This document shows, piece after piece, positions 755-57,122 of a stretch of 64,000 nucleotides of DNA (positions within the stretch are counted from its first letter, which is position 1; the number at the start of each line of letters is the position of its first letter). The notes beneath the pieces were generated by a model. That model saw nothing but the letters and a program-made list of their open reading frames with translations. It made no database searches and was not told the origin of the DNA. The position numbers and the translations under genes were made by a program. The stretch is from a bacterium (lineage in GTDB: Bacteria > Bdellovibrionota_C > UBA2361 > SZUA-149 > JAQTWB01). The stretch spans positions 1 through 64,000 of the forward strand of contig JAQTWB010000003.1 in the NCBI GenBank assembly GCA_028689495.1, in the 5' to 3' direction.

Positions 755-3208
755 TCACCCAACTGGCTTAACAACCAGGTTAACGAGCTTATCGGCGACA
801 ATAATCTCACGAACAATCTGATGCCCGACGAGATAAGTCTTAACCTTATCCCGCGCTATCGCAAGCTCCAGTAGCTTTTCCTTTGTTGTGCCAGGTTCAA
901 CTTCCATCGTATCCCGCAACTTGCCGTTCACCTGAATTGCAATCGTGACCTGTTCCTCGCGTGCCAGATTTTCATCAAATGTCGGCCAAGCTTCGTACGC
1001 CAGTGTATTGCTGCCACCTAGACGCTGCCAGAGCTCTTCGCCAAGATGTGGAGCAAATGGCGCAAGTAAAAGAACAAACCGTTTGGCCACCGAAAGTGGA
1101 ATAGCTGCCCCCTGAGCCTCGTTGACAAAAGTCATCAGTGCAGCCAGAGCAGTGTGAAACTTGAACCCCTCAATGTCTTCCGTAACTTTGCGAATCGTCC
1201 GATGGAGCGTTTTTTCTATCGCCGTCACCTCGTTACCATCAGCGACTACCCGCTCATGAATATTTCCATCCTGAGCAATCAACAAATTCCAGCAACGCCC
1301 AAGAAACTTGTGCACCCCGCCAACCGACTTGGTATTCCAAGGCTTAACCTGCTCAAGCGGCCCCATGAACATTTCGTATAAGCGCAAAGTATCAGCGCCA
1401 TAACGGGAAATAATGTCATCCGGATTAATCACATTGCCGCGCGACTTTGACATCTTCTGCCCGTCTTCGCCGAGAATCATTCCCTGATTGACAAGCTTCT
1501 GAAATGGCTCCGGAGTAGAGACATAACCGAGGTCATAAAGAACATGGTGCCAGAAACGGGAATATAACAAATGCAGCACCGCGTGCTCTGTGCCACCAAC
1601 ATAAAGGTCAACCGGCATCCAGTAATTTTCCGCCTCTTTACCCCACGGCTCTGCTTCATTCTTTGGATCGAGATAACGCAGATAATACCAGCAACTGCCC
1701 GCCCACTGCGGCATGGTGTTTGTCTCACGCAGCACAGCTTCGCCCGTTTCCGGATCAACTGTATTCAACCACTCGGTAGCCCGAGCCAGTGGCGGCTCTC
1801 CATCTTCAGTTGGCTGATAACGCTCAACCTCGGGCAACAAGACAGGTTGGGCTGAATCAGGAAGCAACTTAGGCCCTGACGCAGTGTGAATAATCGGAAA
1901 AGGTTCACCCCAATAACGTTGACGACTAAACAACCAATCCCGCAGTTTGTAATTCACCTCTTCTTTGCCAATCCCCCGTTCAACCAGCCAGGCAATCATC
2001 TTCGCCTTCGCTTCTTCAACGGCAAGCCCATCAAGAAAACCGGAATTCTGCAGAGTGCCATCTCCATCGTAAGCTTTTTCATTTATCTCGCCGCCGCTGA
2101 TGACCTGGCGAATCTCAAGCTCAAATTTCCTGGCAAAGTCATAATCGCGCTGGTCATGTGCCGGCACTGCCATGATCGCCCCTGTGCCGTATGTGATCAG
2201 CACATAATCAGCAATATAAACCGGTATCTTCTCTCCATTCACCGGATTAACTGCGTAGGCTCCAGTAAAGACACCTGTCTTTTTGTCCGCTTCTTCCTGC
2301 CGCAATCGATCACTCTTGTTCTTGGCCTCCGAGACATAAGCTTCAACCATCGAACGCTGGTCGGTAGAAGTAATCTGCGAAATAATTTCGTGCTCAGGAG
2401 CAAGAACACAATAAGTAGCGCCAAAAAGTGTATCGGGCCTTGTGGTAAAAACCTCAAAACTCAATCCCTCACAATCGGCGACAGAAAACTTCAACCTCGC
2501 ACCGGTGCTTTTACCAATCCAGTTGCGTTGCATTTCTTTAACGCCTTCCGGCCAATCCAGCCCTTCGAGACCATCGAGCAATCGCTCGGCGTAACTCGTA
2601 ATGCGAAGCACCCACTGACGCATCGGACGACGAATTACATCATGCCCACCTCGTTCCGACTTGCCATCGACAACTTCCTCGTTTGCCAGCACCGTGCCCA
2701 ATGCAGGACACCAGTTGACCGGAACATTGTCCATATAAGCGAGGCCTTTTTCATAGAGGCGGCTGAAGATCCACTGCGTCCACCGATAATAATCCGGACT
2801 TGCTGTCGAAACTTCACGATCCCAATCATAGGAAAAACCGAGCGCCTGAATCTGTCTGCGAAAATTATCGATATTTCGCTTTGTCGTAACCGCTGGATGT
2901 GTCCCCGTCTCCAAAGCATACTGTTCCGCCGGTAGACCAAATGCATCCCAGCCCATCGGATGAAGCACATTAAAGCCGCGCATACGCTTATAACGGCAGA
3001 CAATATCCGTAGCCGTGTAACCTTCGGGGTGTCCGACATGAAGCCCGGCGCCTGAAGGATAGGGAAACATGTCAAGGACGTAATATTTTGGCTTCTCTTT
3101 GTTGACCTCAGATTTAAAGGTCTTGTTCTCCTGCCAGTACCCCTGCCACTTGGGCTCAATGGCACCGGGTTCATATCGGTATGACTTTTCGGTTCGGGCT
3201 TCGCTCAC
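755..3208 (-). CDS. leuS: Leucyl-tRNA synthetase
   Basis: Full-length 817 aa with class I motifs ([24 protein letters not shown]). Confidence 0.97.
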
Positions 3209-4601: not shown

Positions 4602-4797
4602 TATTACAAGCTTCCCTTTCTTTGATGACATAAATCACCGATAGACCCTGAAAATCTCCGAAAAAACAAAGCGCCATTCACAATAATTGAATTTTGCTTT
4701 CAAGAAGATATCTGGCATTCTCCCACCACTAACGGCAAACGCCCTTACCCTGTGGGCTTCAGCATAAATTGCAACTTCAAAACCAAAGGAATACCAA

Positions 4798-5313
4798 ATG
4801 GCCACATCAAATACCGGCATCACATTCAAAGGAAATCCTGCCACTCTAACCGGAACATCCGTTAGTGTTGGCAAACCGCTGCCACAGTTTAAAGTAACAG
4901 CCAATGACATGAGCGATCTGACCAATGAAAACTTCGCTGGCAAAGTGCTGATAATTTCAGTTGTCCCCAGCCTGGACACACCTATCTGCGATCTGCAAAC
5001 AAAGCATTTCAACCACGATGCCGCCGCAATGGGCGACACCGCAGCCGTTCTGACTGTAAGCCGTGACCTGCCCTTTGCACAGAAGCGCTGGTGTGCTGCC
5101 GCTGACGCGACAAATGTCATCACCGCCAGCGACTATCGCTATCGCACGTTTGGTGAAGCGTTTGGCGTGCTGCTTGATAACCTTCAACTTCTCGCCCGTG
5201 CTGTTGTTATCGCCGACAAATCCGGAGTTGTTCAATATGTGGAATACGTAGACGAAGTCACGAATGAGCCAAACTACGAAGCGGCACTAACTGCGGCCAA
5301 GTCGTTATTGTAA
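4798..5313 (+). CDS. tpx: Thiol peroxidase
   Basis: 171 aa; VVPSLDTPICDLQTKHFN and RDLPFAQKRWC are typical Tpx motifs; SD aaagga upstream. Confidence 0.95.
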   Translation: MATSNTGITFKGNPATLTGTSVSVGKPLPQFKVTANDMSDLTNENFAGKVLIISVVPSLDTPICDLQTKHFNHDAAAMGDTAAVLTVSRDLPFAQKRWCAAADATNVITASDYRYRTFGEAFGVLLDNLQLLARAVVIADKSGVVQYVEYVDEVTNEPNYEAALTAAKSLL

Positions 5314-5457: not shown

Positions 5458-8094
5458 CTACTCATTACCCGCTTTCGCCACCTGTCTGTCGTGGATACGA
5501 AAGGCCAGTGTTCCTTTTTCCGTATCAACCAGCACTTCCGACCCGGCGTGCACTTCTCCTGAGATAATCTTCCGCCCCAAAGCTGTCTCCACATGACGTT
5601 GGATATAACGCTTGAGTGGTCTTGCCCCATAGGCCGGGTCATAGGCACCTTCAACAATCAAGGACTTTGCGGCTTCGCTAATAGTCACAATTATCTCTTG
5701 CTCAGCAAGACGCTTCTGCAAGCGTGTGAACTGTATTGTCACAATTCGCGCTACCTCCGCTTTGGTCAGCGGTTTGAACAACACAATATCATCCACACGG
5801 TTCAAAAACTCCGGCCTGAAATGTGCACGGAGCTCCTTCATCGCCATATCCTTGGCCGATTCCTTTATCTCACCATCCGCTGTCACTCCTTCAAGCAAAT
5901 AAGGAGAACCAATATTAGAGGTCATGATGATCACGGTATTCTTGAAATCGACCATCCGCCCCTGGGAATCAGTAATCCGCCCATCGTCCAGGACCTGAAG
6001 CAACACATTAAAAACATCGTGGTGCGCCTTTTCAATTTCATCAAAAAGCACAACTGAGTAAGGTTTGCGTCGAATAGCTTCCGTCAACTGCCCTCCCTCC
6101 TCAAAGCCGATGTATCCCGGAGGGGCGCCAATCAGACGAGAGACGCTGTGTTTCTCCATGTATTCACTCATGTCGATACGGATCATGTTGTCTTCACTGT
6201 CGAACAACGACTCCGCCAATGTCCGAGCCAGCTCTGTCTTACCTACTCCAGTCGGCCCGAGAAAAATAAAAGAACCGATGGGTCGCCCCGGATCTTTAAT
6301 ACCTGCCCGGGCTCGCAATACAGCATCGGCAACAAGACCAACTGCCTCATCCTGACCAACAACTCTTTCGTGCAAAACGGTATCGAGTTTAAGCAATTTC
6401 TCGCGTTCACCTTCAAGCAGCCTCGAAACAGGAATTCCCGTCCAGCGAGCAACAATCTCGGCGATCTCATCAGCTGTCACCTCTTCGCGCAACAGGCGAC
6501 TGCCTTCTGCGCCCTTGGAAATTTCAGCCTCTTCCTTCTCAAGCTCCTGCTCAAGCTTCGGCAAAAGGCCGTGCTTTAATTCAGCCGCCTTGTTCAAATC
6601 GTATGCGAGCTCCGCTCGTTCAACATCGCGACGGGCTGTTTCAATCTTCTCCCGCAGATGCTGAACCTTGACGATTGCCGTCTTCTCATTCTCCCACTGC
6701 GCTTTCATCGACTTGACCACGTCCTGCCGTTCAGCAAGTTCTTTTTGCAGAACCTTCAACCGCTCCTGACTGGCTTTATCTTTTTCGTTTTTAAGAGCAG
6801 CCTCCTCAATTTCAAGCTGCATTACTTTACGAGTCGCTTCATCAAGCTCAGCCGGCATCGAATCAATCTCGGTGCGAATCATCGCACAAGCTTCGTCGAC
6901 AAGATCAATCGCCTTATCCGGGAGGAAACGGTCAGTGATATAACGATGTGACAATACCGCGGCGTCAACCAAGGCATTATCGTGAATTTTTACCCCATGA
7001 TGCACTTCAAAGCGTTCCTTCAGACCACGCAAAATGGAAATCGAATCCTCAACACTTGGCTGATCAACCAGCACCGGTTGAAACCTCCTTTCAAGAGCCG
7101 GATCTTTCTCGATGTATTTCCGATATTCATCAAGAGTCGTCGCACCAATACAGTGAAGCTCACCACGAGCGAGCATCGGCTTTAGCATATTGCCGGCGTC
7201 CATCGCCCCATCGGACTTTCCAGCGCCGACAATCGTATGAAGCTCATCGACAAACAAAAGAATCTGTCCATCAGACTCTTTTATTTCCTGCAAAACCGAT
7301 TTCAAACGCTCCTCAAATTCACCGCGGTATTTTGCACCGGCAATCAACGAACCCATATCAAGAGAAAAAAGTCGCTTGTCTTTTAACCCTTCCGGCACAT
7401 CACCTTTAACGATACGCTGGGCCAAGCCTTCAACAATCGCGGTCTTACCTACCCCCGGCTCTCCAATTAGCACCGGATTGTTTTTCGTTTTCCGGGAAAG
7501 GACCCTGACGACACGACGAATCTCTGTATCTCGCCCGATCACCGGATCGAGCTTACCACTCTCGGCATCAGCAACGAGATCCCGTCCGTATTTTTTTAAT
7601 GCTTCGTAGGTCTCTTCGGGATTGGCACTTCGAACCTTCTGATTGCCACGCACATCAGTCAGCACCTTGAGGAATTTGTCTTTGGTAATTTGAAATAAAT
7701 TAAATACTTTTGCCGCCGGTGTTTTTCCACCCTCCACAATAAAAGCAAGGACAAGGTGCTCCACCGAGATATATTCATCTCCAAGCCGCTTTGCTTCCTT
7801 TTCCGCAGCCAGAAGAATCTTGTTCAACCGCTGCGTGACATATACTTTGCCGGGCTCAACTCCGGGACCCGAGACAGAAGGGACGCGATTAAGTTCACCC
7901 TCAACGGCCTGCTGAAACGCCTCAGGTGAAATATCCATCTTCTGCAACAGACGAGGAAACAGGCCCTCCTGCTGCTGCACAAGTGCCAGTAGCAAGTGTT
8001 CACCATCAACTTCAACATGCCCTCTTTCAATGGCAATCGCTTGCGCCTGCTGCACTGCTTCGGCTGTTTTCTGTGTGAACTTGCTTGCGTCCAT
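5458..8094 (-). CDS. clpB: ATP-dependent chaperone ClpB
   Basis: 878 aa with two AAA modules ([29 protein letters not shown]), Clp_N domain and M-domain. Confidence 0.97.
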
Positions 8095-10544: not shown

Positions 10545-11222
10545 TTACTCGAAATGAATGATTTTCATTTCTCCGGCAAGATCTATCACCATCAAACGAT
10601 CAACAAAGGTATCAATGTATTTTTCTTCAATGTAAGCGTATCCATCGACAGAATCGCCATTGACAGCAACAATATATTTCCAAGCCTCGTCGCCGCCTAG
10701 CTCCGTATCGATTTTTATCTGCTCAACATACCTCGCCAGCGTTCGTGTAGAATTTTCTCCCGGTTTTGGCCTCAACTGGACAATATAACCTGGGGGCAAC
10801 ACCTGTATCCAAACATTGTCTTTCCGCGGCATGCCGGGGAAAACAACCAAATCGGCCTTTGCCAGATTATTGCGCCCTACAGAAGAAAAAAAAGTCTCCC
10901 AACTTTTCTTGCTTTTCCTGACCCGGCACTGTTCGTCCAAATCATAGGCCACAACAACGGGTTGATAAGAATGCAACGCAATATCTTCATACCACCCCTG
11001 ACTAGCGGCTCTTCTGATTAGATCCTTAAACATATTACTCAAAAACGGTTGATGTAATATCCTTAACTCCTTGGCTTGAAGCTCCGCATGGGTTGAAACG
11101 AGATCATACTTCATCCACGACACAAAATACTGCGGCTTTTTACTGAGCAGGTTAATGAAAAAAACCTCTGACTCGCTCGTCGGTCCAAACTGCTCAACTC
11201 GCGCTTGATTAAAATCAAACAT
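10545..11222 (-). CDS. Conserved hypothetical protein
   Basis: Internal Met (MFDFNQARVEQFG) preceded by ggagg SD on the minus strand; no family recognised. Confidence 0.6.
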   Translation of the reverse strand: MFDFNQARVEQFGPTSESEVFFINLLSKKPQYFVSWMKYDLVSTHAELQAKELRILHQPFLSNMFKDLIRRAASQGWYEDIALHSYQPVVVAYDLDEQCRVRKSKKSWETFFSSVGRNNLAKADLVVFPGMPRKDNVWIQVLPPGYIVQLRPKPGENSTRTLARYVEQIKIDTELGGDEAWKYIVAVNGDSVDGYAYIEEKYIDTFVDRLMVIDLAGEMKIIHFE

Positions 11223-12141: not shown

Positions 12142-14558
12142 TGGACAAAAAAATCCACACATCGGAAATCGACTTGCTTGCTTTTCACGAAGGACGTCTC
12201 GACGCCAGCGCCGAAGAGCAGGTTAGAAAAATGCTGAGCAGCTCGGAGGCGCTTCGCAAAGAGTACGAGGATTTAAAAAATATCCTCGCTCTTTCGAAGA
12301 GACTCCAGGAACAGACTCCTGTTCTCAAAGCTGACCTCAGCGAAGTTGTAACCAGTGCGGTAGATGTTTACCGCACTGGCAGTAGTATCAATGACAAACT
12401 GTGGAGCAGTATCATGAAAAAACAGTTTAATCCGCTATATTTCCCCCGCTCATTGCAGCTTGCCCTGGGTGGAGCAAGCGTTTGCCTCCTTGCATTTTTG
12501 CTGACGACAAAGAAGGATTTCCCAAAACCATACGACAAACCGGCAAACGAGATCCGCAGCTTCAACCCCATTGAGGATGAAGAATATAAAAACGTAGAAC
12601 AGGCATACGAAGAAAAGCTGCAAGTCAGCAATACCGAAAAACAGGATTCCGATCATCAAGTAAAGGCCGAACAACAGGTTGGCACAAGTGTAGACTACTT
12701 TGCTCCAAGTGGGTCAATTGCTCCGGGTAGGTCAATTGCTCCGGGTGTTTCAGTTTCCCCCGGTGTCTCAGTTGATCGTTTAAAACAAAATCTCCAAAGG
12801 GAAGCAAACAAAGAGAAGATCGCGGATGCCCCTTTAAAAAGAGGTTCTACATTTGGCCTGGAAGGATCAATTACTCCAGCTCCGGCAGCAAGCAGAAAAT
12901 CCAGGGAACCATACGATTTTCGCCGCACCGATAAATCCTTCGACGGGACTGCTTACGCGTCGTCTTCGTACGAACAAGATATTTCTGGTGACGATGTGCG
13001 CTACCGCTCGCAAATCTATCCCCAGCCGACAACACCTCAACCAGGCAACGTCTACAACAGCATCGTTGAAAACCAGTTCAAGTTCGCGAAAAGCGAACCA
13101 CTGACCACTTTCAGCGTCGATGTCGACACAGCCGCCTATGCCAACGTCCGTCGCCACATAACTCAGGGGATGGTGCCGCCTGCCGACGCAGTGCGTATCG
13201 AGGAAATGATTAACTACTTCAGCTATAACTACCCTGAACCAGACAGTGAGCACCCGTTTTCTGTTGTAACAGAAGTCACTCGCTCTCCCTGGAACGAAGG
13301 TCATGCCCTGCTAAAAGTCGGCCTGCAAGGAAAACACCTCAACGAAAAGGAAATGCCGGCAAGTAACCTTGTCTTTCTTGTTGACGTCTCGGGTTCCATG
13401 TCTTCGGAAGACAAGCTCGGCTACCTCAAACATGGACTGCGTATGCTGACCGAACAACTGCGCCCGGAAGACACCGTCTCCATCGTGACCTACGCTGGAT
13501 ATGCTGGTGTGGCCCTGCCACCGACAAAAGGCAATGAGAAGGAAAAAATCATCGGCATGATTGAACGACTGCAAAGTGGCGGCAGCACCGCTGGAGCTGA
13601 GGGAATTCTCACCGCCTACAAACTGGCTCGCGAACAGTTCCTCAAAGAAGGCAATAACCGTGTTATCCTGGCAACTGATGGAGACTTCAACGTCGGCGTC
13701 AGCAATGACAACGAGCTTGTCAGCTTAATCGAGCGTGAACGCGAACACGGCATCTTCCTCAGCGTGCTCGGCTTCGGCGAAGGGAACTACATGGAAGGCA
13801 AAATGGAACAACTTGCCGACAAGGGAAATGGCAACTTCTCCTATATCGACAACCTGCTCGAAGCGAAAAAAGTGTTGGTCAGCGAAATGGCCGGCACTCT
13901 TTTCACGATTGCCAAGGATGTAAAAATTCAGATTGAATTTAATCCGGCAGTAGTCTCATCTTACAAGCTGCTCGGCTATGAAAACCGTGCACTGAAAAAC
14001 GAAGACTTCGCCAACGACAAAATAGATGCCGGAGAAATCGGCGCCGGACATTCAGTCACCGCACTTTATGAGCTGACACTTGTCGGTGAAGCGGAAACGT
14101 CTGCCCCCGTCGATGAACCACTTCGCTATGCTGCCCATAACGAGAAAATTACACAGAACATTACAACGACAAATGGCACCGAGCACATCAGTGAACTGGC
14201 TTATGTCAAACTGCGCTACAAACAACCGCAAGGCAACGAAAGCATTCTGCTCAGCCAAACCGTCGCCAATACTGTCAATGCTCTGTCAATCGCATCCGAA
14301 GATACGCGCTTTGCCGCGGCAGTCGCAGAATTCGGATTGCTCTTGCGCTCCTCGACATATAAAGGCAACGCTTCCTTTACTCAGGCGGCTGAACTCGCCC
14401 GCTCCTCACGTGGCAAAGACAATGCAGGGCATCGCGCCGAATTTGTTCAATTGGTGGAAAAAGCGGAGCTGCTTCAAAAAGGCAATTATCAGCCTGCCCC
14501 AGGAGTTGGTAATTACGAACGCCCGGCACCAGGCGTTGTCGGTGGAAGTTGGAGATAA
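12141..14558 (+). CDS. VWA-domain protein (YfbK/DUF3520-like) with N-terminal anti-sigma-like segment and TM helix
   Basis: LVFLVDVSGSMSSEDKLGYLKHGL MIDAS motif, C-terminal YfbK-like region, start overlaps the sigma factor stop codon (taATG). Confidence 0.88.
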   Translation: MDKKIHTSEIDLLAFHEGRLDASAEEQVRKMLSSSEALRKEYEDLKNILALSKRLQEQTPVLKADLSEVVTSAVDVYRTGSSINDKLWSSIMKKQFNPLYFPRSLQLALGGASVCLLAFLLTTKKDFPKPYDKPANEIRSFNPIEDEEYKNVEQAYEEKLQVSNTEKQDSDHQVKAEQQVGTSVDYFAPSGSIAPGRSIAPGVSVSPGVSVDRLKQNLQREANKEKIADAPLKRGSTFGLEGSITPAPAASRKSREPYDFRRTDKSFDGTAYASSSYEQDISGDDVRYRSQIYPQPTTPQPGNVYNSIVENQFKFAKSEPLTTFSVDVDTAAYANVRRHITQGMVPPADAVRIEEMINYFSYNYPEPDSEHPFSVVTEVTRSPWNEGHALLKVGLQGKHLNEKEMPASNLVFLVDVSGSMSSEDKLGYLKHGLRMLTEQLRPEDTVSIVTYAGYAGVALPPTKGNEKEKIIGMIERLQSGGSTAGAEGILTAYKLAREQFLKEGNNRVILATDGDFNVGVSNDNELVSLIEREREHGIFLSVLGFGEGNYMEGKMEQLADKGNGNFSYIDNLLEAKKVLVSEMAGTLFTIAKDVKIQIEFNPAVVSSYKLLGYENRALKNEDFANDKIDAGEIGAGHSVTALYELTLVGEAETSAPVDEPLRYAAHNEKITQNITTTNGTEHISELAYVKLRYKQPQGNESILLSQTVANTVNALSIASEDTRFAAAVAEFGLLLRSSTYKGNASFTQAAELARSSRGKDNAGHRAEFVQLVEKAELLQKGNYQPAPGVGNYERPAPGVVGGSWR

Positions 14559-14698: not shown

Positions 14699-15553
14699 TT
14701 ATCGACGCGACATGCTCTCGTCGGCCAAAGTCTCGCCTAAACGAATCTTCCTGGCATCGAATCCCGCAGAGGCAGCAAACAGTTCAGGGTTTTCCGAGAG
14801 CAGCACAACGGTAGAACCGAGGTTGAAAGTTGCAATCTTCTCACCTCGATTAAAAGCAAATGGTTGAGAGTATTTTCTGACCAAAATCTCTTTATTGCGG
14901 GAAAAAGAGCACTGTTGATTGCTGACGACATCATCAAATGCAACCGAGATCGAACCGACATTTGTTGCTCCGACACAAACCAGTGCCATGCGGCCGTAAG
15001 CGGATGTCAACTCAATCACAACTCTTTCGTTGCGGCAAAAAAGCTGCGGCACGCGATTTACTGACCAGCTGTTTACCGGCCAAAGCGCTCCGGGGATATA
15101 CCGCAATGCGACGACTTCACCGTTAACTGGTATGTGGATATGATGATAATCACCAGGTGCCAGATAAACTGTTGCATAAGAACCTGTTTCATACGGCGAT
15201 CCCTCTTCACCAATCAGCTCTGATACCTTGTAGGTCCAGCCTTTAATCTGGGGAATCTCCCGACCAGGGATACGACCGATGCCAACAAGACGACCATCAA
15301 CCGGCGACACAACCCCGCTAGACAAAGGACGAACCCCCACCCGCAAATCGCGAACAAAGAACTCAGCCAATGAAGAGAACTGCTCAAGTTGCCGGGCAGA
15401 TTCACTCAGGTTGGCGCCATATTTTTTTACATACCAACGCAGTAAAGGCTGCAATAAAATATCTGGGAAATGAATACCGGCAAAACGACCAAAGACAAGA
15501 CTCAAACAGTTGCCCGGGAAGATTCGAAGCAGTGTTAACCAGGGATCAAGCAT
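14699..15553 (-). CDS. psd: Phosphatidylserine decarboxylase proenzyme
   Basis: LAEFFVRDLR, SPVDGRL, YHHIHIPVNG and the terminal FNLGSTVVLL self-cleavage (LGST) motif; start overlaps the upstream PBP stop. Confidence 0.93.
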   Translation of the reverse strand: MLDPWLTLLRIFPGNCLSLVFGRFAGIHFPDILLQPLLRWYVKKYGANLSESARQLEQFSSLAEFFVRDLRVGVRPLSSGVVSPVDGRLVGIGRIPGREIPQIKGWTYKVSELIGEEGSPYETGSYATVYLAPGDYHHIHIPVNGEVVALRYIPGALWPVNSWSVNRVPQLFCRNERVVIELTSAYGRMALVCVGATNVGSISVAFDDVVSNQQCSFSRNKEILVRKYSQPFAFNRGEKIATFNLGSTVVLLSENPELFAASAGFDARKIRLGETLADESMSRR

Positions 15554-17273
15554 GCTTTTCGTTACGAAAATATTCTTCAAGCATCAATCGAGCCAGGCCA
15601 GAAGCGTTAATCTGTCGCTTGCCCTGATCGACGACAAGTGAGGCTACAACTACCTCCGGATTCTCCGCCGGCGCTGCTGCGACAAACCAAAAATAAACCC
15701 CCAAAGGATCCTTGCCCGTTAATGTACCTGTCTTGGCCGATATAACCTTGGGAAAACCCTTACCATTATGAAACTGACGGAACTCCCGCCGCCCGGTTCC
15801 AATCTTGGTCGTTTCCTCCATCATCTTCAACAAACGACCGGCTGTTTCCGCCGCGACCACTTTCTGTAATTGCTGTGTCTGAGCCTGATATAACAAAGCA
15901 CCGTTCACCTCAGACGCCAGAGTGTTAATAATATAGGGACGCATCATAACCCCCTTGTTGGCAATACTTCCAATAAGGGAGGCGGCATGAAGTGGATTCA
16001 AGGTCACTTCACCAAAGCCAGCAGCGGTCCGAGCGACACCATAATCGTCAGAAGGTATGACATAAGTGTCCTGCCTCGCTGGCACATCGAAATTAAGTTC
16101 ACGGCCAAATGCAAACGAACGGGCATAACGTTCCAGCAGTTGAGGTGAAAGATAATTAAGAGCGACCCGGGCGAATACCGGATTACACGATTTACCCAAC
16201 GCTGAGGCCAAAGTCATAGACCGGGTATCGAGCTTGGGTTGAGGATTATAATTCCGCTGGTTGAGCACATAATCCCCACCCCGATAGTGAATAGGAGTAT
16301 TGCCGTTAATCTTCGTGTTCTCCAACGCGGCAGAGGTGGTGACCAGCTTGAAAATTGAAGCTGCTGGTCCGCTGGCATTCAAAGCGAACTTCATATTATC
16401 AGGCCTACCGGAAGAATGACTGGCAATTGCCAGCAGCTTTCCACTACTCGGTTCAAGCAACACCACACCTCCAAAAGGGACGCGATACTGCTTAAGCAAC
16501 GCCTCCGCCTTATCCTGAAGGCCCGGATTAAGAGAAAGTCCAACCTTCATGCCGGAGTCAACAATCTGAAGGGCCCCACCAACTTCAATCGCCTTTTCCA
16601 GGTCAAGCTCTAAACTTGGTCGACCGGACGAATCAATAAACCTGGACAGGCTAACCGGATAATCTCCAGCTTCCTGAGCCTCTCCACTATTCTCGTCCGT
16701 GTCTTGAGCAGATAAAACTTCGAGACCCTGTAAATTTCCGTCCTGTATCCGGGCCTGAGCACCATCATCTTCGCCTACACCCAGAGCCATCGCCAGCGGT
16801 TGTGTCAGACCATATTGCTGGTTTTGCACGCCATCCATGCTCACAGCAGCTTGCTCTGTCCCGCTACCGGCCTTCCCCTTCATCCTTGCTATCTCAGGCA
16901 TATTGAGTGGCATCTTCATCTCTGGAGAGACAGCGGCCAGGGGATTACGCAAAATTTCTTCCTGACGGACTGATTCATGCTGAACGGCGCGGACAAATCC
17001 GGTCAGAGGAAACGTCAAAACTAGCACCAGCAGCACCACAGCAAACAATCGACGACGACGACGGCTTTTTTTCTCAATTGCACTATAGGCATACCGAGTG
17101 GAAACAGCCTGCCTTTTTAAGGAAACCCTTGTCTTTAAGGAAACCCTTGTTGCGGTATGCCCACGACGCACTCCAGACTCAGCATCACTTGCATTATGTA
17201 TCTTGGAAGAGTTTGACCGACATTTTAAAAGCCGGCGTTTTAAAAGATTGTGCAACATACTCAAGAGCAACAA
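15546..17273 (-). CDS. Penicillin-binding protein transpeptidase (membrane-anchored)
   Basis: SxxK motif (AASIFK), SCN (GKSCNPVF), KTGT (SAKTGTLTG), single N-terminal TM; N-terminal start uncertain. Confidence 0.85.
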   Translation of the reverse strand: MLLLSMLHNLLKRRLLKCRSNSSKIHNASDAESGVRRGHTATRVSLKTRVSLKRQAVSTRYAYSAIEKKSRRRRRLFAVVLLVLVLTFPLTGFVRAVQHESVRQEEILRNPLAAVSPEMKMPLNMPEIARMKGKAGSGTEQAAVSMDGVQNQQYGLTQPLAMALGVGEDDGAQARIQDGNLQGLEVLSAQDTDENSGEAQEAGDYPVSLSRFIDSSGRPSLELDLEKAIEVGGALQIVDSGMKVGLSLNPGLQDKAEALLKQYRVPFGGVVLLEPSSGKLLAIASHSSGRPDNMKFALNASGPAASIFKLVTTSAALENTKINGNTPIHYRGGDYVLNQRNYNPQPKLDTRSMTLASALGKSCNPVFARVALNYLSPQLLERYARSFAFGRELNFDVPARQDTYVIPSDDYGVARTAAGFGEVTLNPLHAASLIGSIANKGVMMRPYIINTLASEVNGALLYQAQTQQLQKVVAAETAGRLLKMMEETTKIGTGRREFRQFHNGKGFPKVISAKTGTLTGKDPLGVYFWFVAAAPAENPEVVVASLVVDQGKRQINASGLARLMLEEYFRNEKHA

Positions 17274-18421: not shown

Positions 18422-19503
18422 CAGAATTTCACCTCAAGCTGGGCTCCATTGGCAACCTCCTGGCTTTCACCGGCAAGAGCTGCGAGAAAATCACGATAGG
18501 GCACAGCACCAGCTTCTTTGGCAAGATGGTTCAGATTTCGCCCGATACGTCTCAAAGTTCCGGGAATCCACTTTTCGTAGTGCTTCAAACCTCTTTCCCG
18601 GGAAAGCTTGGAAAAACGTCCAACTACCTTAAGATCTCTTTGCAGAAGGCAAAGCAGATATTGCTTCTGCAAACTCTCCGCCTCCTCCTTGCCAATCACA
18701 CCAGACTGCTCAGCAAAAAAACGCCAAACCAGCCGAAGGTTCTGCTCACCTAATGCCGAATCCATATCGCGATCGTTCAACAAAGAAGCAATGTCGTAGC
18801 AGCGATTCCCCCATAGGGCGTCCTGAAAATCAATTACGCGAATCCTCAGTGCCGGATCGACATGAATATTGGAAGCATGAAAATCTCGATGCACCAGCAC
18901 CTGCGGATAGGTACTCAGCTCGCGCGCGAGAAAAATATAAAAACTGTTCGCTCTACACCTTTCAGCACGTTCAAGGCCAAGATAATATTCGGAAAACTCT
19001 TTCATCTCCCGCACATAAATATCTTCGCTGAAAGCCCGACTGTATGGGAAAACAGTATTATCAATTTCTTGCAACAAGAGTAGCTGGCGTACAGCGTCAT
19101 AGAAGTAATTAAGGACCTCATCCTCAACTTCACCTGGCCTGACAAGGGATGAAAGGGAAACATCCGCCAGATCTTCAAGAAACAGGACCCTTCCGTCGAG
19201 GGTCTCACCAAATAGTTGAGGTACGGCGACCTCACAAGCAGCAAAAACACCGCTCAGGGTTTGATAAGACTCACTTGAGGAGACCGGGTCGCCGACTTCT
19301 GCCGGTTTAAGCGAGTCAAAAACCATCGCAACTACCGTATAGCTGTGTAATCCCGAGGTCCCCGAGCGATAATAAATACGAAAGTAGCGACGCAAAGACG
19401 CATCTCCCGTCACCGCTTCAATCTTTTCAATTTCATAGGCGGGTTGCCAGGCCGTAAAAAGCTGCGCCAACCGTTCCTGGCTGATAGTTACTGCTTCACT
19501 CAT
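18421..19503 (-). CDS. amgK: Phosphotransferase, AmgK-like anomeric sugar kinase
   Basis: APH fold motifs LVHRDFHASNIHVD and VIDFQDALWG; translationally coupled to murU. Confidence 0.82.
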   Translation of the reverse strand: MSEAVTISQERLAQLFTAWQPAYEIEKIEAVTGDASLRRYFRIYYRSGTSGLHSYTVVAMVFDSLKPAEVGDPVSSSESYQTLSGVFAACEVAVPQLFGETLDGRVLFLEDLADVSLSSLVRPGEVEDEVLNYFYDAVRQLLLLQEIDNTVFPYSRAFSEDIYVREMKEFSEYYLGLERAERCRANSFYIFLARELSTYPQVLVHRDFHASNIHVDPALRIRVIDFQDALWGNRCYDIASLLNDRDMDSALGEQNLRLVWRFFAEQSGVIGKEEAESLQKQYLLCLLQRDLKVVGRFSKLSRERGLKHYEKWIPGTLRRIGRNLNHLAKEAGAVPYRDFLAALAGESQEVANGAQLEVKF

Positions 19504-25637: not shown

Positions 25638-26638
25638 TTTCCGGGCTCACGCTCAAGCACAATATAAAGCTTATTCCCTTCCCGCAGCGGACGAGCGACA
25701 AAACCAGAGGAAAGAAAAACTGCCACCTCAAGATTTCCCTCAACCTCACGTGGCAACACAGACTGCACGCCTTCAATTCCATCCTGCGGGAAAAATGGCA
25801 GCCCGAGATGCCGTCCCGACAGTTTGGCAGCCGGGATTTTAAGAGTAACTAACCCCTCACTCCCGGTCTCCAGAACATAATCAGTGACCGCGAGAGAAAA
25901 TCCAAGTTGTAAAGCGGACGCGCCATCCGCGCCATGAAAAACAAAATCAAGTGCTTCCAGCGTCACATCACCTGATACCTCATCAACATTAGGCACACTT
26001 TTATTCTCGTCCGCACTATCGACCTCAGATGCAGGCTTGGTTCTACGTCCTGAAAGCTCATCAAGGGGGTTATACCCGGCAGAAACATCCTCGCGATACA
26101 CCCTGGCGGAAACAAGACGTGGCACCGCTGGAGGACCGGCAAGCACGGCACCATCGGCCTGATTAAAAGAAATCGAAACAATAAATTCAGACGAAAAACG
26201 ACTCGGCAGTTCTGACCACCCGGGGTTCTCTTTTTCGTTAAAGGTAAAAGTAAGACCGGCGCCATTGTCATCATTACGCGCCTGCACCATTCCCGATTCT
26301 CCAAGCAGTTCATCGACGCCAGTCCGGGTCAATTCAAGACCGGAAAAGAAAAAATCGAGTTGATGACGATTCTCTAGCAGCTCAACCTTTGGCTTCTGCA
26401 AAGCACCTGTCATGGAAACAAATTGCAATATATACGACGATTCACCGGACTCACTAGAACCTGCCGAGGTTTCAAAAAGAATCCGCAAAGGGGGGAATTC
26501 AAAACTCTGACTTTCTGCTTGAACCGGGCAAGGAACAGAAGAAAACAATATCAACAAAGCAGTAACCAGGAGTCCGAAAAACCAATCGAATCTTCGACTA
26601 GCACTTGACTGCCGACAATGACACTGTCTAAGCGACAT
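25634..26638 (-). CDS. Hypothetical secreted protein
   Basis: Signal peptide-like FDWFFGLLVTALLILFSSVPCPVQA; start overlaps the hpt 3' end, suggesting an operon. Confidence 0.65.
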   Translation of the reverse strand: MSLRQCHCRQSSASRRFDWFFGLLVTALLILFSSVPCPVQAESQSFEFPPLRILFETSAGSSESGESSYILQFVSMTGALQKPKVELLENRHQLDFFFSGLELTRTGVDELLGESGMVQARNDDNGAGLTFTFNEKENPGWSELPSRFSSEFIVSISFNQADGAVLAGPPAVPRLVSARVYREDVSAGYNPLDELSGRRTKPASEVDSADENKSVPNVDEVSGDVTLEALDFVFHGADGASALQLGFSLAVTDYVLETGSEGLVTLKIPAAKLSGRHLGLPFFPQDGIEGVQSVLPREVEGNLEVAVFLSSGFVARPLREGNKLYIVLEREPGN

Positions 26639-27212
26639 CGGGCCCCTGAATCTCAGACTTGATACGGTAGATTTCAGGAAGGTTGGAATAACGGTTCGCA
26701 TCGTCAAGCCCCAGACCAACCAGCCACTCTTCGCCGTGGTAATCAAAACAACTCCAGTCAGGTACAAACTGCGGTTTAGGGACAATACGCCGCACCAGCG
26801 AAACGGAACGAATCTCACCCGCACCAGCGTCTTTCAAAGTTTTACTGATAAGCGCCAATGTTTTGCCAGAGTCGCAAATCTCATCGACCATCAAAACCGA
26901 CCTGCCAGCGACGTTGCAGCAAATGAGTTCAATTCGGCTCTGTTCAAGTTCCTGATTGGATTCTTTGCAGTAGGCCTCACTGCGGCAGAACGCCGTTTCG
27001 ACACTAAAGGCCAACGAGCGCAATAAATCGGAGTAAAAAAAAACTCCGCCGCGCAAGACACAAACGGCAACTACCGGTAACCCGGTTGCCTGCTGCTGCT
27101 TGTTGCCCCAGCAAGTAATTTGTCTGCCGATACTTTCCACCTGCTCTTTTATCTGCAGGCGCGTATAAAGCTTTTCGTAACGTCGCGGAACCAGCCACTC
27201 AACTGAGGACAT
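26628..27212 (-). CDS. hpt: Hypoxanthine phosphoribosyltransferase-like
   Basis: PRPP loop VLMVDEICDSGKTL; VVAVCVLRGGVFFYSDLLR; DYHGEEWLVGLGLDDANRYSNLPEIY. Confidence 0.88.
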   Translation of the reverse strand: MSSVEWLVPRRYEKLYTRLQIKEQVESIGRQITCWGNKQQQATGLPVVAVCVLRGGVFFYSDLLRSLAFSVETAFCRSEAYCKESNQELEQSRIELICCNVAGRSVLMVDEICDSGKTLALISKTLKDAGAGEIRSVSLVRRIVPKPQFVPDWSCFDYHGEEWLVGLGLDDANRYSNLPEIYRIKSEIQGPDVA

Positions 27213-27663: not shown

Positions 27664-27810
27664 ATTTTGGGTTTATTCTGAGCAAAAAATTCGGTATTGT
27701 CGCCAGTCCGAGCAGGAAGATATATGACGATCTCCCTTCCTCCTCTGGTCGGCAGGGCGAATGCATCCTACCTGCCTGTAAATACTAGCTTTTTGCTCGC
27801 GACCCAAAAT
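27664..27810 (+). ncRNA. Candidate structured leader RNA upstream of the GCS2-like gene (strand inferred)
   Basis: Nested stems attttgggt/acccaaaat (27664-27672/27802-27810) and gagcaaaaa/tttttgctc (27680-27688/27790-27798), enclosing hairpins aggaag/cttcct (27714-27719/27736-27741) and ggcagg/cctgcc (27751-27756/27771-27776). Confidence 0.5.
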
Positions 27811-27900
27811 CTTGCCGGTGGAAAGCATCCCTCTTTGAAAACTTGCCTTGGGTAATAAACCTGCTTGGACCTTCGACTGGCGCATAGCCGCGACAGCCGG

Positions 27901-27937
27901 AGGTCTGAGAATCAGACTTTATTTTTTTGTTTTTTTG
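27901..27937 (+). promoter_or_regulatory. Terminator-like hairpin and T-tract directly before the SD of the GCS2-like gene (candidate attenuator)
   Basis: aggtctga-gaa-tcagactt stem (8 bp incl. one G·U) followed by tattttttttgttttttt-like T-tract, then ggaggtttttATG. Confidence 0.55.
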
Positions 27938-27946
27938 GAGGTTTTT

Positions 27947-29482
27947 ATGACTGGGTTACATAATGGGGACTATTTAGAGGAATGCCGGCAACAGCTGGAG
28001 AACCTGAGAATAGCCCTTAATGCTGGGCTGGACAGCAATGTCTGGAAAATGGGTGCAGAGGTAGAAATACCCCTGATCGATCAGGGGACAGGCGAAACTG
28101 CCTTATCGGCTTTCGACTTATCGCACAAAATTCACCAAGGTCAATTTTGCGACTGCGACAACTCTCCGGAATCTTTTCCCGGAAACCTCGAGCTTAACAT
28201 CAAGCCCCAGGTAATCGGAGCGGATTGTCTCAAAGAGATTGAACAGGAGATGATAAAAGCGCTAGTCGCCATCGGCTCTGCAAATATGACCACCGATATA
28301 AACGGCAACTTAGTCCGGGCCAAACCGATATTCACGGGAATCAGCCCTGGGTTGACGGCAGAAATGTTTGGTGTGCTAACCACGCCCAAACAGCGCTATG
28401 TGCAGCTCAACAACACGCTAGACGCGTTGTTGAATGCACGCGGCGAAAGTGGGCAACTGCTGCAGTTCGTCTATGGCGATGGACACATAGTGCAATTGCC
28501 ACGGATGAACCGCACCGATATCGGAATGGGTTCATCCATCCAACCGCACATCGGTTGTCCGGCGAAAGACTTCGCCTGGCTGATGAACATCAGTCGCGCA
28601 CTGATGGGCATCTTGCAAAGCGCCACCGTCGCTTCGCCGAGGATTCTGGGACATAAGGTGCCGGGATACCAGGAAGGACGGATCTGGCTCTGGGAAGAGC
28701 TCATCCAGATGGTGGACTTTGACCCGATGATGGGCCGCGGTGGCTATCTGAAGGAAGGTACGACCGATGGACTGTATGAGGCCATCAAAGCACAGTTTGA
28801 CAGCAACAGACCTCTGATACTCAACCCGGAGTTGACGGAAGAATGTAACTGTCATCATCCACTTTCGGCACTGTGTCATTATATGGGCACTGGATGGTTC
28901 CACATCCGCCCCTGTGTGGCATTTGTCGATGGAGAATATCAGCCTCATGTAGAATTGAGGAACTTCTCAACCGGCCCCTCAATTCCCGACATGATGTCGC
29001 TATTGAGTGTGTATCTGGGGCTTGTGCTGTTCTTCAAAGACAAGGGTATCTCAGCGGAATCTCTTTTGTCATACGACGAGGCACGGGATAATTTCTACCA
29101 TGCGGTAGAAAAAGGGCTTGATGCTGAACTCGCCTGGTGTGGAGAACGGTTTAAGGCTGACAAGTTGTTACTTGACGTCCTTCTGCCATACGCCCACCAG
29201 GGCTTGAAAGGTGCCGGTATCGATGATGGTTATGTCGGCCATCTCGAGCGTTCTGTGGGGAAAAAATTGACAGCCGCGAGTTTCATCGACGCTGTTTACG
29301 AACAGTTTACCAATGTTCCGGAAGATGTGGTCGGCAGAGGTCTGGCACTCTACATGAGTGACCGGCCATGCTCGCCAATCGCCGACTGGTGCGCAAGTGA
29401 CGTTGGCGGCTATATTGCCAGCATCACTTCTGAAGCTGTTCAAGACTGCGGCAACGCAACTCAGGAAGCGGCGTATTTTTAA
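27947..29482 (+). CDS. Glutamate-cysteine ligase family 2 (GCS2-like) carboxylate-amine ligase, paralog 1
   Basis: KMGAEVEIPLIDQGTG; PHVELRNFSTGPSIPDMMSLLSVYLGLV; strong SD ggagg; ORF track start 27848 rejected because of the SD placement. Confidence 0.75.
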   Translation: MTGLHNGDYLEECRQQLENLRIALNAGLDSNVWKMGAEVEIPLIDQGTGETALSAFDLSHKIHQGQFCDCDNSPESFPGNLELNIKPQVIGADCLKEIEQEMIKALVAIGSANMTTDINGNLVRAKPIFTGISPGLTAEMFGVLTTPKQRYVQLNNTLDALLNARGESGQLLQFVYGDGHIVQLPRMNRTDIGMGSSIQPHIGCPAKDFAWLMNISRALMGILQSATVASPRILGHKVPGYQEGRIWLWEELIQMVDFDPMMGRGGYLKEGTTDGLYEAIKAQFDSNRPLILNPELTEECNCHHPLSALCHYMGTGWFHIRPCVAFVDGEYQPHVELRNFSTGPSIPDMMSLLSVYLGLVLFFKDKGISAESLLSYDEARDNFYHAVEKGLDAELAWCGERFKADKLLLDVLLPYAHQGLKGAGIDDGYVGHLERSVGKKLTAASFIDAVYEQFTNVPEDVVGRGLALYMSDRPCSPIADWCASDVGGYIASITSEAVQDCGNATQEAAYF

Positions 29483-29503
29483 TTTTGACTTTCATGTTTG
29501 ACA

Positions 29504-29530
29504 AGGTCGCGTTTACGAGGAACGCGACCT
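29504..29530. repeat. Hairpin aggtcgcgtt-tacgagg-aacgcgacct
   Basis: Perfect 10-bp inverted repeat just after the paralog 1 stop codon. Confidence 0.7.
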
Positions 29531-29655
29531 CACTCAAAAACCATTTAAGGATTTTACCTGATTCTCAGCCTGCTTTAATTTTCTATAATTGCCCTATTGA
29601 CCTCGGTGAGAAAACCGTCGTCCGCGGCAATACATAACGGGTAGATGCCTTCCGT

Positions 29656-29710
29656 CTTTAACCACACGGCCATAGCGCGGTGTGGTTAAAGAGAACGCCA
29701 CAAACGTGGC
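29656..29710 (+). promoter_or_regulatory. Two consecutive hairpins in the 5' region of GCS2 paralog 2
   Basis: ctttaaccacac…gtgtggttaaag (12-bp arms, 29656-29667/29680-29691) and gccac-aaac-gtggc (29697-29710), the second abutting aggagg. Confidence 0.6.
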
Positions 29711-29721
29711 AGGAGGTTTTT

Positions 29722-31284
29722 ATGAATGCAGTACCCACTGTCGCTGCTGAGCCGATTACGGCAAACAGCGTCCCCCGTTTTGCTGACCTGCAAATGCAGA
29801 AAGCGAAATACCTGATGCCTTGTTTGAACAGCATGGAAGATGCTCTTCGCTCAGGGATGTTCATCAATCGCAAGACCCAAAAAATTGGCGCCGAACTGGA
29901 GGTGTTCCTGGTCGACAGAGAAACAGGTGCTCCAGCCAATCTGGCAGTTGAAGTTGTCCGTGAGCTGGTCGCCATCTCTAAACAGTTCCAGCACGAAGCC
30001 ACGCAAATACAGGTAGAATACAATGCCAGCGTATTCCGAATGCGCGAAGTGTGTTTCCAGAATCTGCGCGATGACATGCGTGATGCCCTGCAGCTAATCG
30101 ATAGCATCGCCGCAAAATATGGAGCAATCAGTGTCGCCTGCGGCACCTTGCCTTCATCAAGCTACGATGACTTGTTGGGCAAGCGGGTCCTTATGACACC
30201 GCTTTCCCGTTATCGAACGATGAGCAGCACTGTCCAGGAAAGCCGGCTTGCATTGTTTGACGGCAAGGAAGACCCGCGAATAGTTATCCCGCAACACTCG
30301 CGAGATGTGTTCGAAATGCCAAAAGGAGTACATTTGCCCTGGCTAATCGGCTTGTTTTCTTCTTACCAAATGCACCTGGAAATTCCCTATGACAAATTCG
30401 GCAGGATCTACAACTGGTTTGTCGCGCTTGCCGGAATCCATCTCGGAGCTACTACCGGCTCCGGTGTATTTTGTGAGCGTCTGGTTGCAAAGGAAATTCG
30501 CTCCTGGATGTGGCGCTTCCTGATGGGTAAACAACTGGCCGGCTTTCCGGAAAGTTACCTGGAGGAAGATAACCTAGCCTTTGCTCAGTACATGCGCCGG
30601 GCGGTAGAAAAACACCCTGTGCTGCTCGACTTGAGCGTCAAGGGCGAATACCCGGATTTCGATAACTACGGTCATTTGAATCTGCACAACGGCACTGTCT
30701 GGGAACCTCTTCGCGGAGTACTTGGACGTGAAGGTGACAAGTTGACAACTCGTATTGAAGTTCGCTGGCCAGCGAGTGGTCCAACTCCAGCGGACATGGT
30801 AGCACACACTGCCATGCTCTTTGCCGCCACTCTGGCTTTTGAAGGTGAAGCTCCAGCAAAGTTCGTTCCTTTTGGTGCAGCAAAAAAGCACTTCATGGAT
30901 GCGAGTTTTTCTGGTCTTGATTTCATCGCTCAATGGTCTGACGACTATTACAGTGTTCGTCACCTGCTGCTGAATATGATTATCCCCCGAGCTCGGGAAA
31001 TTCTTCAGGACTTTGGTATCGACCTGTCGATTCTTGAGCCGGTGAAAAACTCTGTCAGCAAAGGTGTTACGCCAGCAGACTGGATAGGTGAAGCTTTCAT
31101 CTTGCTTGTTAATGCCGGCTACACGCGGCAAATGGCGGGTCAGGTGTTAACGAAACGTATCAGTGAACCCGAACTAAAACTTCACCCTGAGGGCTTTGTC
31201 GCCTGGCCAAAACCAGCCGAAGCATTCAAAAAAGACATCAGGGCGATGCAAAAAAGCGGGGAGGTGCAAGTTGCCAACTATTAA
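29722..31284 (+). CDS. Glutamate-cysteine ligase family 2 (GCS2-like) carboxylate-amine ligase, paralog 2
   Basis: KIGAELEVFLVDRETGAP; LNLHNGTVWEPLRGVL…RIEVRWPASGPTPADM; strong SD aggagg. Confidence 0.8.
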   Translation: MNAVPTVAAEPITANSVPRFADLQMQKAKYLMPCLNSMEDALRSGMFINRKTQKIGAELEVFLVDRETGAPANLAVEVVRELVAISKQFQHEATQIQVEYNASVFRMREVCFQNLRDDMRDALQLIDSIAAKYGAISVACGTLPSSSYDDLLGKRVLMTPLSRYRTMSSTVQESRLALFDGKEDPRIVIPQHSRDVFEMPKGVHLPWLIGLFSSYQMHLEIPYDKFGRIYNWFVALAGIHLGATTGSGVFCERLVAKEIRSWMWRFLMGKQLAGFPESYLEEDNLAFAQYMRRAVEKHPVLLDLSVKGEYPDFDNYGHLNLHNGTVWEPLRGVLGREGDKLTTRIEVRWPASGPTPADMVAHTAMLFAATLAFEGEAPAKFVPFGAAKKHFMDASFSGLDFIAQWSDDYYSVRHLLLNMIIPRAREILQDFGIDLSILEPVKNSVSKGVTPADWIGEAFILLVNAGYTRQMAGQVLTKRISEPELKLHPEGFVAWPKPAEAFKKDIRAMQKSGEVQVANY

Positions 31285-31528: not shown

Positions 31529-33058
31529 TCACCTCTCCATCATCTGCCAATTCAACACCGGCTTTCTCGCCGCTGCAGTTTCATCCAGACGACCAACTGG
31601 CGATGAATAAGGTGCATCGTGAAAAATTTCCGGTGTCTCCTCAACTTCCCGGGCAATTTCCAGCATCGCATCACAGAAGGCATCAAGCGAGTCTTTCGAC
31701 TCTGACTCGGTCGGTTCAATCATCAAGGCATTCTTGACGTGCAGCGGAAAATACACGGTTGGAGGATGAAAGCCGTAATCAATCAACCGCTTGGCGACAT
31801 CTATAGTCGAAACATGGTGCACCTGCTGCTTTGAATCAGTAAATACCGCTTCATGCAGATGAGGCTGCTTCAGGCAAAGCTCATAATCCTTTTCCAACCG
31901 GGCCCTGACATAGTTGGCATTAAGAACTGCCTTTTCACTGACTTGTTGCAACCCTTTTCCACCGAGACGCAGAATAAACGCATAAGAACGAACAAACACA
32001 CCAAAATTGCCAACGAACTCCCGCATCAGACCGATGCTGTCGGTATCTACGACATCGCGATCAAGTCTATAATAAGGCTGTCCGTCTACCCCCTTGATTT
32101 TTTCAATTCGTGGATATGGCAAAAATGGTTTCAAGCGATCACTCACCGCCACAGGTCCGGCACCTGGCCCGCCCCCGCCATGCGGCTGGGAAAAAGTTTT
32201 GTGCAGGTTAATATGCAGGGCATCAACACCAAAATCGCCAGGACGAGCATGACCAAGAAGTGCGTTCAAATTCGCGCCGTCCATATAGACGTACCCGCCA
32301 GCGGCATGAATGATTTCAGCAATCTCCTCAATCCCTGTCTCAAAAAGCCCCAACGTGTTGGGATTGGTGATCATAATCCCACCGATGCTGTCATCCATCG
32401 CCTGGCGCACATCATCTGCCCTGAGAATTCCTTCCGGGCCCGAAGCGATCTGCTTTGTCTTGAGTCCGGCGACAGTGCATGTCGCGGGATTAGTGCCGTG
32501 AGCACTGTCCGGAATAAGAATCGTATCCCTTTTTGAACCGGCTTTCTCCAGCCCTTTGCGGATCATCATCACACCGGCAAGTTCTCCATGAGCGCCAGCC
32601 GCTGGCACAAGAGTCACCCCAGCAAGACCTGTGACAATTCGCAAGGCATCACCAAGCTCATACATCAACTGCAAAGCACCCTGCGCCAGGTGCTCGGGGG
32701 TTTCCGGGTGCAGATGAGCAAAACCCGGCAGACGAACCAACGACTCATGCACACGAGGGTTATATTTCATCGTGCATGACCCAAGTGGATAGCCATGAAC
32801 TTCAACACTGGCGTTAAGTCGCGAAAGCCTGGTGAAGTGCCTGACAACGTCCACTTCCGAAAGTTCCGGAAGCAAAATATCGTCGTCCCTTCTAAGCTCA
32901 GCCGGGATACCCGCAATGAGCTCGGCCACAGCCACCTTGGGCTCGGGCAAATTGACCCCAGAACGCCCGTGTCTTGACTTCTCAAACGACAGGGCCTCAC
33001 CACCACCCAATCTCATCCCGACCGATGGTTTGCTTTCTCTTTTTGTTGCTGGTCGCAC
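31529..33058 (-). CDS. gcvPB: Glycine dehydrogenase (decarboxylating) subunit 2
   Basis: PLP region GGGGPGAGPVAV, YPLGSCTMKYNPR; GTG start with SD aggag. Confidence 0.96.
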   Translation of the reverse strand: MRPATKRESKPSVGMRLGGGEALSFEKSRHGRSGVNLPEPKVAVAELIAGIPAELRRDDDILLPELSEVDVVRHFTRLSRLNASVEVHGYPLGSCTMKYNPRVHESLVRLPGFAHLHPETPEHLAQGALQLMYELGDALRIVTGLAGVTLVPAAGAHGELAGVMMIRKGLEKAGSKRDTILIPDSAHGTNPATCTVAGLKTKQIASGPEGILRADDVRQAMDDSIGGIMITNPNTLGLFETGIEEIAEIIHAAGGYVYMDGANLNALLGHARPGDFGVDALHINLHKTFSQPHGGGGPGAGPVAVSDRLKPFLPYPRIEKIKGVDGQPYYRLDRDVVDTDSIGLMREFVGNFGVFVRSYAFILRLGGKGLQQVSEKAVLNANYVRARLEKDYELCLKQPHLHEAVFTDSKQQVHHVSTIDVAKRLIDYGFHPPTVYFPLHVKNALMIEPTESESKDSLDAFCDAMLEIAREVEETPEIFHDAPYSSPVGRLDETAAARKPVLNWQMMER

Positions 33059-57062: not shown

Positions 57063-57117
57063 CTGCCCATTGAGGAAACTCACTGGGCAGAAGCACTGCT
57101 TGTTTTTTTAACGGAGG
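57063..57117 (+). promoter_or_regulatory. Leader hairpin ctgccca…tgggcag, T-tract and strong SD
   Basis: 7-bp stem (57063-57069/57084-57090), aagcactgctt-gttttttta, then ggaggtttttATG at 57123. Confidence 0.45.
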
Positions 57118-57122
57118 TTTTT

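Follow-up and report, generated by a model that had tools for sequence, protein, structure and literature searches.

The question raised by this locus is what two adjacent and strongly diverged genes for GCS-fold carboxylate-amine ligases might make. The window (the whole stretch of 64,000 nucleotides that was analysed) carries both on the plus strand, P0001 (511 aa) at 27947..29482 and P0002 (520 aa) at 29722..31284, each with an GGAGGTTTTTATG start and separated by an intergenic gap of 239 bp. The sequence-only reading had described them as clearly diverged GCS2 paralogs, quoting pairs of motifs that are indeed present in P0001/P0002 (GAEVEIPL/GAELEVFL and RNFSTGPS/RWPASGPT), and the divergence is borne out by an identity of 24% (E = 7e-22) in an alignment that covers most of their length. 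Both flanking genes lie on the opposite strand, a phosphoribosyltransferase-like ORF upstream (26628-27212) and a GcvPB-like ORF downstream (31529-33058), both named by eye; these immediate neighbours are housekeeping genes and are uninformative on function. No gshB-like ATP-grasp gene was read by eye in the ORF list of the window, in agreement with the earlier observation.

Judged by sequence, neither protein belongs to a characterised ligase family. P0001 has no match to any Pfam or NCBIfam model, PF04107 (GCS2) included, and P0002 gives a marginal PF04107 match of 20.6 bits against a cut-off of 21 (21.1 in a six-frame search with neighbouring frame pieces). The YbdK-family models TIGR02050 and PRK13517 are missed by a wide margin, as P0002 matches with its N-terminal part only (30.3 versus 176.4 and 34.7 versus 332, respectively) and P0001 not at all, and no glutamate-cysteine ligase family model reaches its cut-off for either protein. 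A single-sequence search for solved structures also returned nothing for P0001 or P0002. Profiles built from eleven and from 35 relatives, on the other hand, match the plant glutamate-cysteine ligase in the PDB (E = 3e-4 and E = 1e-5). The AlphaFold2 models are confident (pTM of 0.89 for P0001 and 0.84 for P0002), and the top Foldseek matches of both are YbdK (1r8g) and the plant glutamate-cysteine ligase (2gwc) at E ~1e-10, followed by lower matches to E. coli GshA, the yeast glutamate-cysteine ligase, PafA/Dop, and glutamine synthetase. Because the models are confident and match YbdK and the plant enzyme, the GCS-fold assignment of these predicted structures is firm. The description as GCS2 paralogs stands at the level of fold or superfamily only.

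YbdK itself (PF04107/TIGR02050; E. coli YbdK, PDB 1r8g) shares with both proteins the fold, with TM scores by target of 0.75-0.78 against 1r8g (0.75-0.81 over the YbdK structures matched), a matching ExR strand motif, and the C-terminal helices, but P0001 and P0002 are ~140-150 residues longer and only 10-13% identical to it. The plant-type glutamate-cysteine ligases (PDB 2gwc and 6gmo) are the best PDB match of the family profile (TM by target 0.62-0.67) and have similar C-terminal helices, but identity is 15-16% and no glutathione synthetase was found in this genome. The active site appears to be well preserved. The GhExE metal/ATP signature, described for the carboxylate-amine/ammonia ligase superfamily (PMC2588565), and the conserved ExR strand are both present (G36/E38/E40 and E336/R338 in P0001; matching positions in P0002), with metal- and ATP-binding roles assigned from the superfamily. 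All 15 conserved positions that we checked, which include ExE, E82, QxH, R245, and ExR, are identical in P0001, P0002, and two CBS-fused members of this phylum, so we see no sign of the decay of one copy that had been named as a possible objection. These residues and the models predict that both proteins form an acyl phosphate from a carboxylate and then couple the acyl group to an amine.

The assembly (3.4 Mb, 94.5% complete, 5% contamination) contains three family members, P0001, P0002, and a third copy (G000:C186:53482-55014) that deviates at two of the checked positions (G to S and H to C). Clear family members occur in 6 of the 46 genomes of the phylum, namely this one, G013, G023 (record JALEGQ, bacterium CC_bin8), G024, G038, and G040 (JAGRAT, labelled Bdellovibrionales bacterium HKST-UBA25), while most have no copy; five family matches were found in G024, and there are more copies in G038 as well. 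The P0001-P0002 pair, whose conservation in relatives had been suggested as a check, was seen in none of the other genomes. A scan of the wider genome contigs with P0001 found nothing, though its exact-peptide seeding has little power for a query this divergent, and no viral relatives were found. Two much larger proteins, L077:9606-12302 (898 aa, G038) and L076:5712-8513 (933 aa, G024), contain remote GCS-like stretches (<=94.5 bits with profile A1) and have no Pfam match.

In a maximum-likelihood tree, which was built without characterised plant-type ligases, P0002 forms a clade with the third paralog and G013 (support 95/88), which P0001 joins weakly (82/63), and both fall outside the CBS-fused clade (97/92). 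All these members sit on very long branches (3.7-4.5 changes per column for P0001 and P0002), and the tree program warns that such joins are possibly false. As the tree makes P0001 and P0002 non-sisters, and as they are only 24% identical, a recent tandem duplication is ruled out as the origin of the pair.

Regarding pathways, no match to glutathione synthetase (PF02955) or to the E. coli-type GshA (PF04262) was found in the 94.5%-complete assembly, in searches for which the control genomes were positive; the canonical gshB elsewhere in the genome that would have pointed back to glutathione was thus not found. The ergothioneine route was also rejected, as EgtD (PF10017) had no match in the same assembly, where the controls worked. 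EgtA, the ergothioneine glutamate-cysteine ligase (TIGR03444), shows weak similarity to CBS-fused and Streptomyces relatives, but its model does not match P0001 or P0002. Since canonical gshB, E. coli-type gshA, and EgtD all appear to be missing from the assembly, a product other than glutathione is likely.

The gene context of the relatives is more informative than that of the pair. A CBS-fused form of the same ligase, represented in this phylum by L084 (JALEGQ, CC_bin8) and L085 (JAGRAT, HKST-UBA25), was found at ~50 loci and is widespread in Gemmatimonadota, Planctomycetota, Myxococcota, and others. Its ligase domain can be aligned end to end with P0001 and P0002 and has the same catalytic positions, but our two proteins have no CBS domains and no adjacent AstE/AspA gene. 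An AstE/AspA-type amidohydrolase, searched with PF24827 (PF04952 covers only a 76-position part of the family in the Pfam release used and gave a false negative), is the next gene downstream of the CBS-fused ligase in 24 of the 46 loci with enough sequence; 19 of these were identified by a strict script criterion and five (L095, L098, L107, L109, and L115), where the ligase and AstE/AspA matches overlap by ~20 bases, were counted by hand. Within the phylum, PF24827 occurs in each of the six genomes that have clear family members, compared with 8 of the remaining 40 (Fisher p = 3e-4, in a test that ignores relatedness, four of the six positive genomes being of one family), and in two of them it lies within ~3 kb of a family gene (G038:C421 and G024:C66). 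The present genome has a single AstE/AspA gene (G000:C211:58272-59243), which stands alone with no ligase gene nearby and keeps the GGLHGNE and DLHS motifs, typical of zinc binding in the family. A literature search found no paper on a link between the CBS-ligase and AstE. The new carboxylate-amine ligase families described by Iyer et al. 2008 (PMC2588565) belong to the same superfamily, and one of them also adjoins predicted amide-cleaving enzymes, but the neighbours there are glutamine amidotransferase-like peptidases or gamma-glutamyl cyclotransferases and not AstE/AspA. Another possible amide-cleaving partner, an M20-type peptidase, is encoded directly downstream of a family ligase in G024 (L073:7175-8284).

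We propose that P0001, P0002, and the third copy are solitary ATP-dependent ligases of an uncharacterised and fast-evolving GCS-fold clade and that they make a gamma-glutamyl-type amide other than glutathione, a reading from sequence and models that we consider evenly balanced between right and wrong. Glutamate is the usual donor in the carboxylate-amine ligase superfamily, and the carboxylate that these ligases most likely phosphorylate is probably its gamma-carboxylate; coupling to an amine would give a gamma-glutamyl-type amide that does not lead to glutathione. The acceptor amine is probably not the same for the three copies. Such a product is the most likely because there are several diverged copies, no glutathione pathway, and a link to AstE/AspA. 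In relatives, the neighbouring genes suggest an amide cleavable by an AstE/AspA-type hydrolase. The partner step in these relatives is apparently hydrolysis by this kind of zinc amidohydrolase, so the product is possibly a reversibly made pool compound or tag, and the one AstE/AspA enzyme encoded here may use it as a substrate. A wider version, possible but doubtful, would be a new metabolic module of GCS-fold ligases that lack cysteine specificity and form gamma-glutamyl-type amides, and of a cognate AstE/AspA zinc amidohydrolase that dismantles them; in many lineages CBS domains would sense adenylates, and this phylum would have several solitary paralogs under separate control. Taken alone, the pair is a modest finding, and it is the AstE/AspA link that makes the product idea testable. 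If true, this would define, within a ligase fold that has been studied well, an uncharacterised branch that occurs in many uncultured phyla and has a testable partner enzyme, and annotations as "glutamate-cysteine ligase family" in glutathione-less genomes could conceal another metabolite.

The main rival is that at least one of the two proteins is a true glutamate-cysteine ligase and that gamma-glutamylcysteine is the low-molecular-weight thiol of the cell without gshB, as reported for haloarchaea. The fold is common to the plant enzyme and YbdK, the catalytic positions are intact, and, with no gshB or E. coli-type gshA in the assembly, any gamma-glutamylcysteine would have to derive from these genes. 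We consider it unlikely, however, as no family model for such a ligase is matched at cut-off, most genomes of the phylum do without any copy, and a set of three copies here, with more copies in G024 and G038, is easier to reconcile with a range of products than with a single thiol. The unusual low-molecular-weight thiol suggested by the sequence-only reading is possible, with nothing pointing to cysteine, while its more general idea of gamma-glutamyl-type ligases with a non-glutathione product is reasonable, given the intact residues and a gshB not found in the assembly.

The other part of that reading, a hetero-oligomer or co-evolved pair, fared worse. An obligate hetero-oligomer, in which one chain is catalytic and the other regulatory or the active site is shared, would suit two adjacent same-strand genes of similar length in a superfamily whose ligases are often dimeric, and heterodimers have been proposed for paired PafA genes (PMC2588565). 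Nevertheless, adjacency says little here because the paralogs are non-sisters and the pair was found in no other genome among the 46 of the phylum; a third copy lies elsewhere, both chains retain the checked catalytic positions, and each gene, 239 bp from the other, apparently has its own leader, so that we found nothing in its favour and regard it as very unlikely. It is also conceivable that ligase activity has been lost and that the proteins are regulators, sensors, or hydrolases, much as Dop is a deamidase/depupylase related to the ligase PafA. The very long branches could also be compatible with relaxed constraint or a non-enzymatic role, Dop and PafA are among the weaker Foldseek matches, and the CBS-fused relatives suggest nucleotide sensing within the clade. 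Yet both proteins retain ExE, ExR, and the remaining positions that we checked, with deviation only in the third copy, which makes this loss quite unlikely. Solitary ligases for a gamma-glutamyl-type amide remain our preferred reading.

The separate leaders also relate to the earlier claim of individually structured 5' regions. The P0001 leader contains a predicted stem-loop followed by a T-run (27864..27909, plus strand; fold of 27780-27960, z = -2.85) and a long Shine-Dalgarno sequence with the start, GGAGGTTTTTATG, at 27937..27949 (plus strand). On the same strand, P0002 has a GGGTAGA motif (29639..29645), common to the third paralog and other long-SD genes, a predicted stem-loop (29656..29691; fold of 29560-29740, z = -4.22), a second small stem-loop in the same fold directly before the Shine-Dalgarno sequence (29697..29710), and again a long Shine-Dalgarno sequence with its start, GGAGGTTTTTATG (29712..29724). 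Upstream of P0002, a promoter-like site TTCTCA-16-TATAAT (29562..29589, plus strand) is a consensus match only, in a region where the number of such sites is not above shuffles. The structure in both leaders is real compared with shuffles, but it is not specific to P0001 and P0002, as it belongs to a genome-wide class of long-SD genes. The start GAGGTTTTTATG occurs 29 times in the genome versus 0 for the reversed pattern, and the window has GGAGGTTTTTATG starts at 27938-27949, 29713-29724, and 57114-57125, the first two being those of P0001 and P0002. Throughout this genome (G000), genes with the GGAGGTTTTTATG start have strong hairpins of variable sequence upstream and often CCGGGTAGA 50-150 nt upstream, and long-SD leaders, taken as a class, show more structure than the leaders of the remaining genes (mean z of -2.45 versus -0.88, p = 8e-4).

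GGGTAG is found before P0002 and the third paralog, P0001 having only GGGTAA. It is the top of 4096 hexamers in long-SD leaders (7/20 versus 5/342, p = 3e-7 uncorrected for the 4096 hexamers, on data overlapping the set in which it was discovered), and among variant long-SD starts, which form a partly independent set, it recurs in 4 of 17 leaders. A promoter role for GGGTAG was rejected, as 27 aligned sites have no positionally fixed -35-like element; so was sequestration of the Shine-Dalgarno sequence by the leaders, which is not above shuffles (0.82 versus 0.80, p = 0.40). Hairpins of the attC or REP type were set aside by eye, since hairpin sequences differ from gene to gene. At gathering score, neither the window nor a set of 20 loci gave an Rfam match, and the GGGTAG-leader architecture matched about once per genome in the other genomes of the phylum, for the true and the reversed pattern alike. 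Similar-looking single leaders were seen in G004 (L139) and G013 (L145), but no enrichment was seen outside this genome.

A different leader element, with two hairpins, CUCACC(variable)GGUGAGG-NUGGUGAAAC-AAGGUUUU, before a long Shine-Dalgarno sequence, is common to eight genes whose membrane-protein-like products are only ~20% identical. Six copies are in L186 (G000:C127), at 7479-7545 (minus strand), 10909-10966, 13754-13809, 15288-15344, 16921-16985, and 18579-18641, and the others are at L027:1419-1480 and L017:1526-1594 (minus strand). Two-sided changes occur at 6 of 19 predicted pairs, and from its sequence we consider it a candidate cis-regulatory RNA; it has no Rfam family match, and a search of ~0.84 Mb of this genome with its covariance model gave no additional strong copy. 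The leaders of P0001 and P0002 were rejected as members of this element (R1), as neither the window nor the third paralog gave a match. Last, L174 carries near-copies of a small protein beginning MRVLDHLLK (2632-3141 and 4688-5197), and a third, cut copy lies at the start of the contig stretch G000:C214:20001-40000; these copies are interleaved with other genes in what looks, by eye only, like a defence-type cluster.
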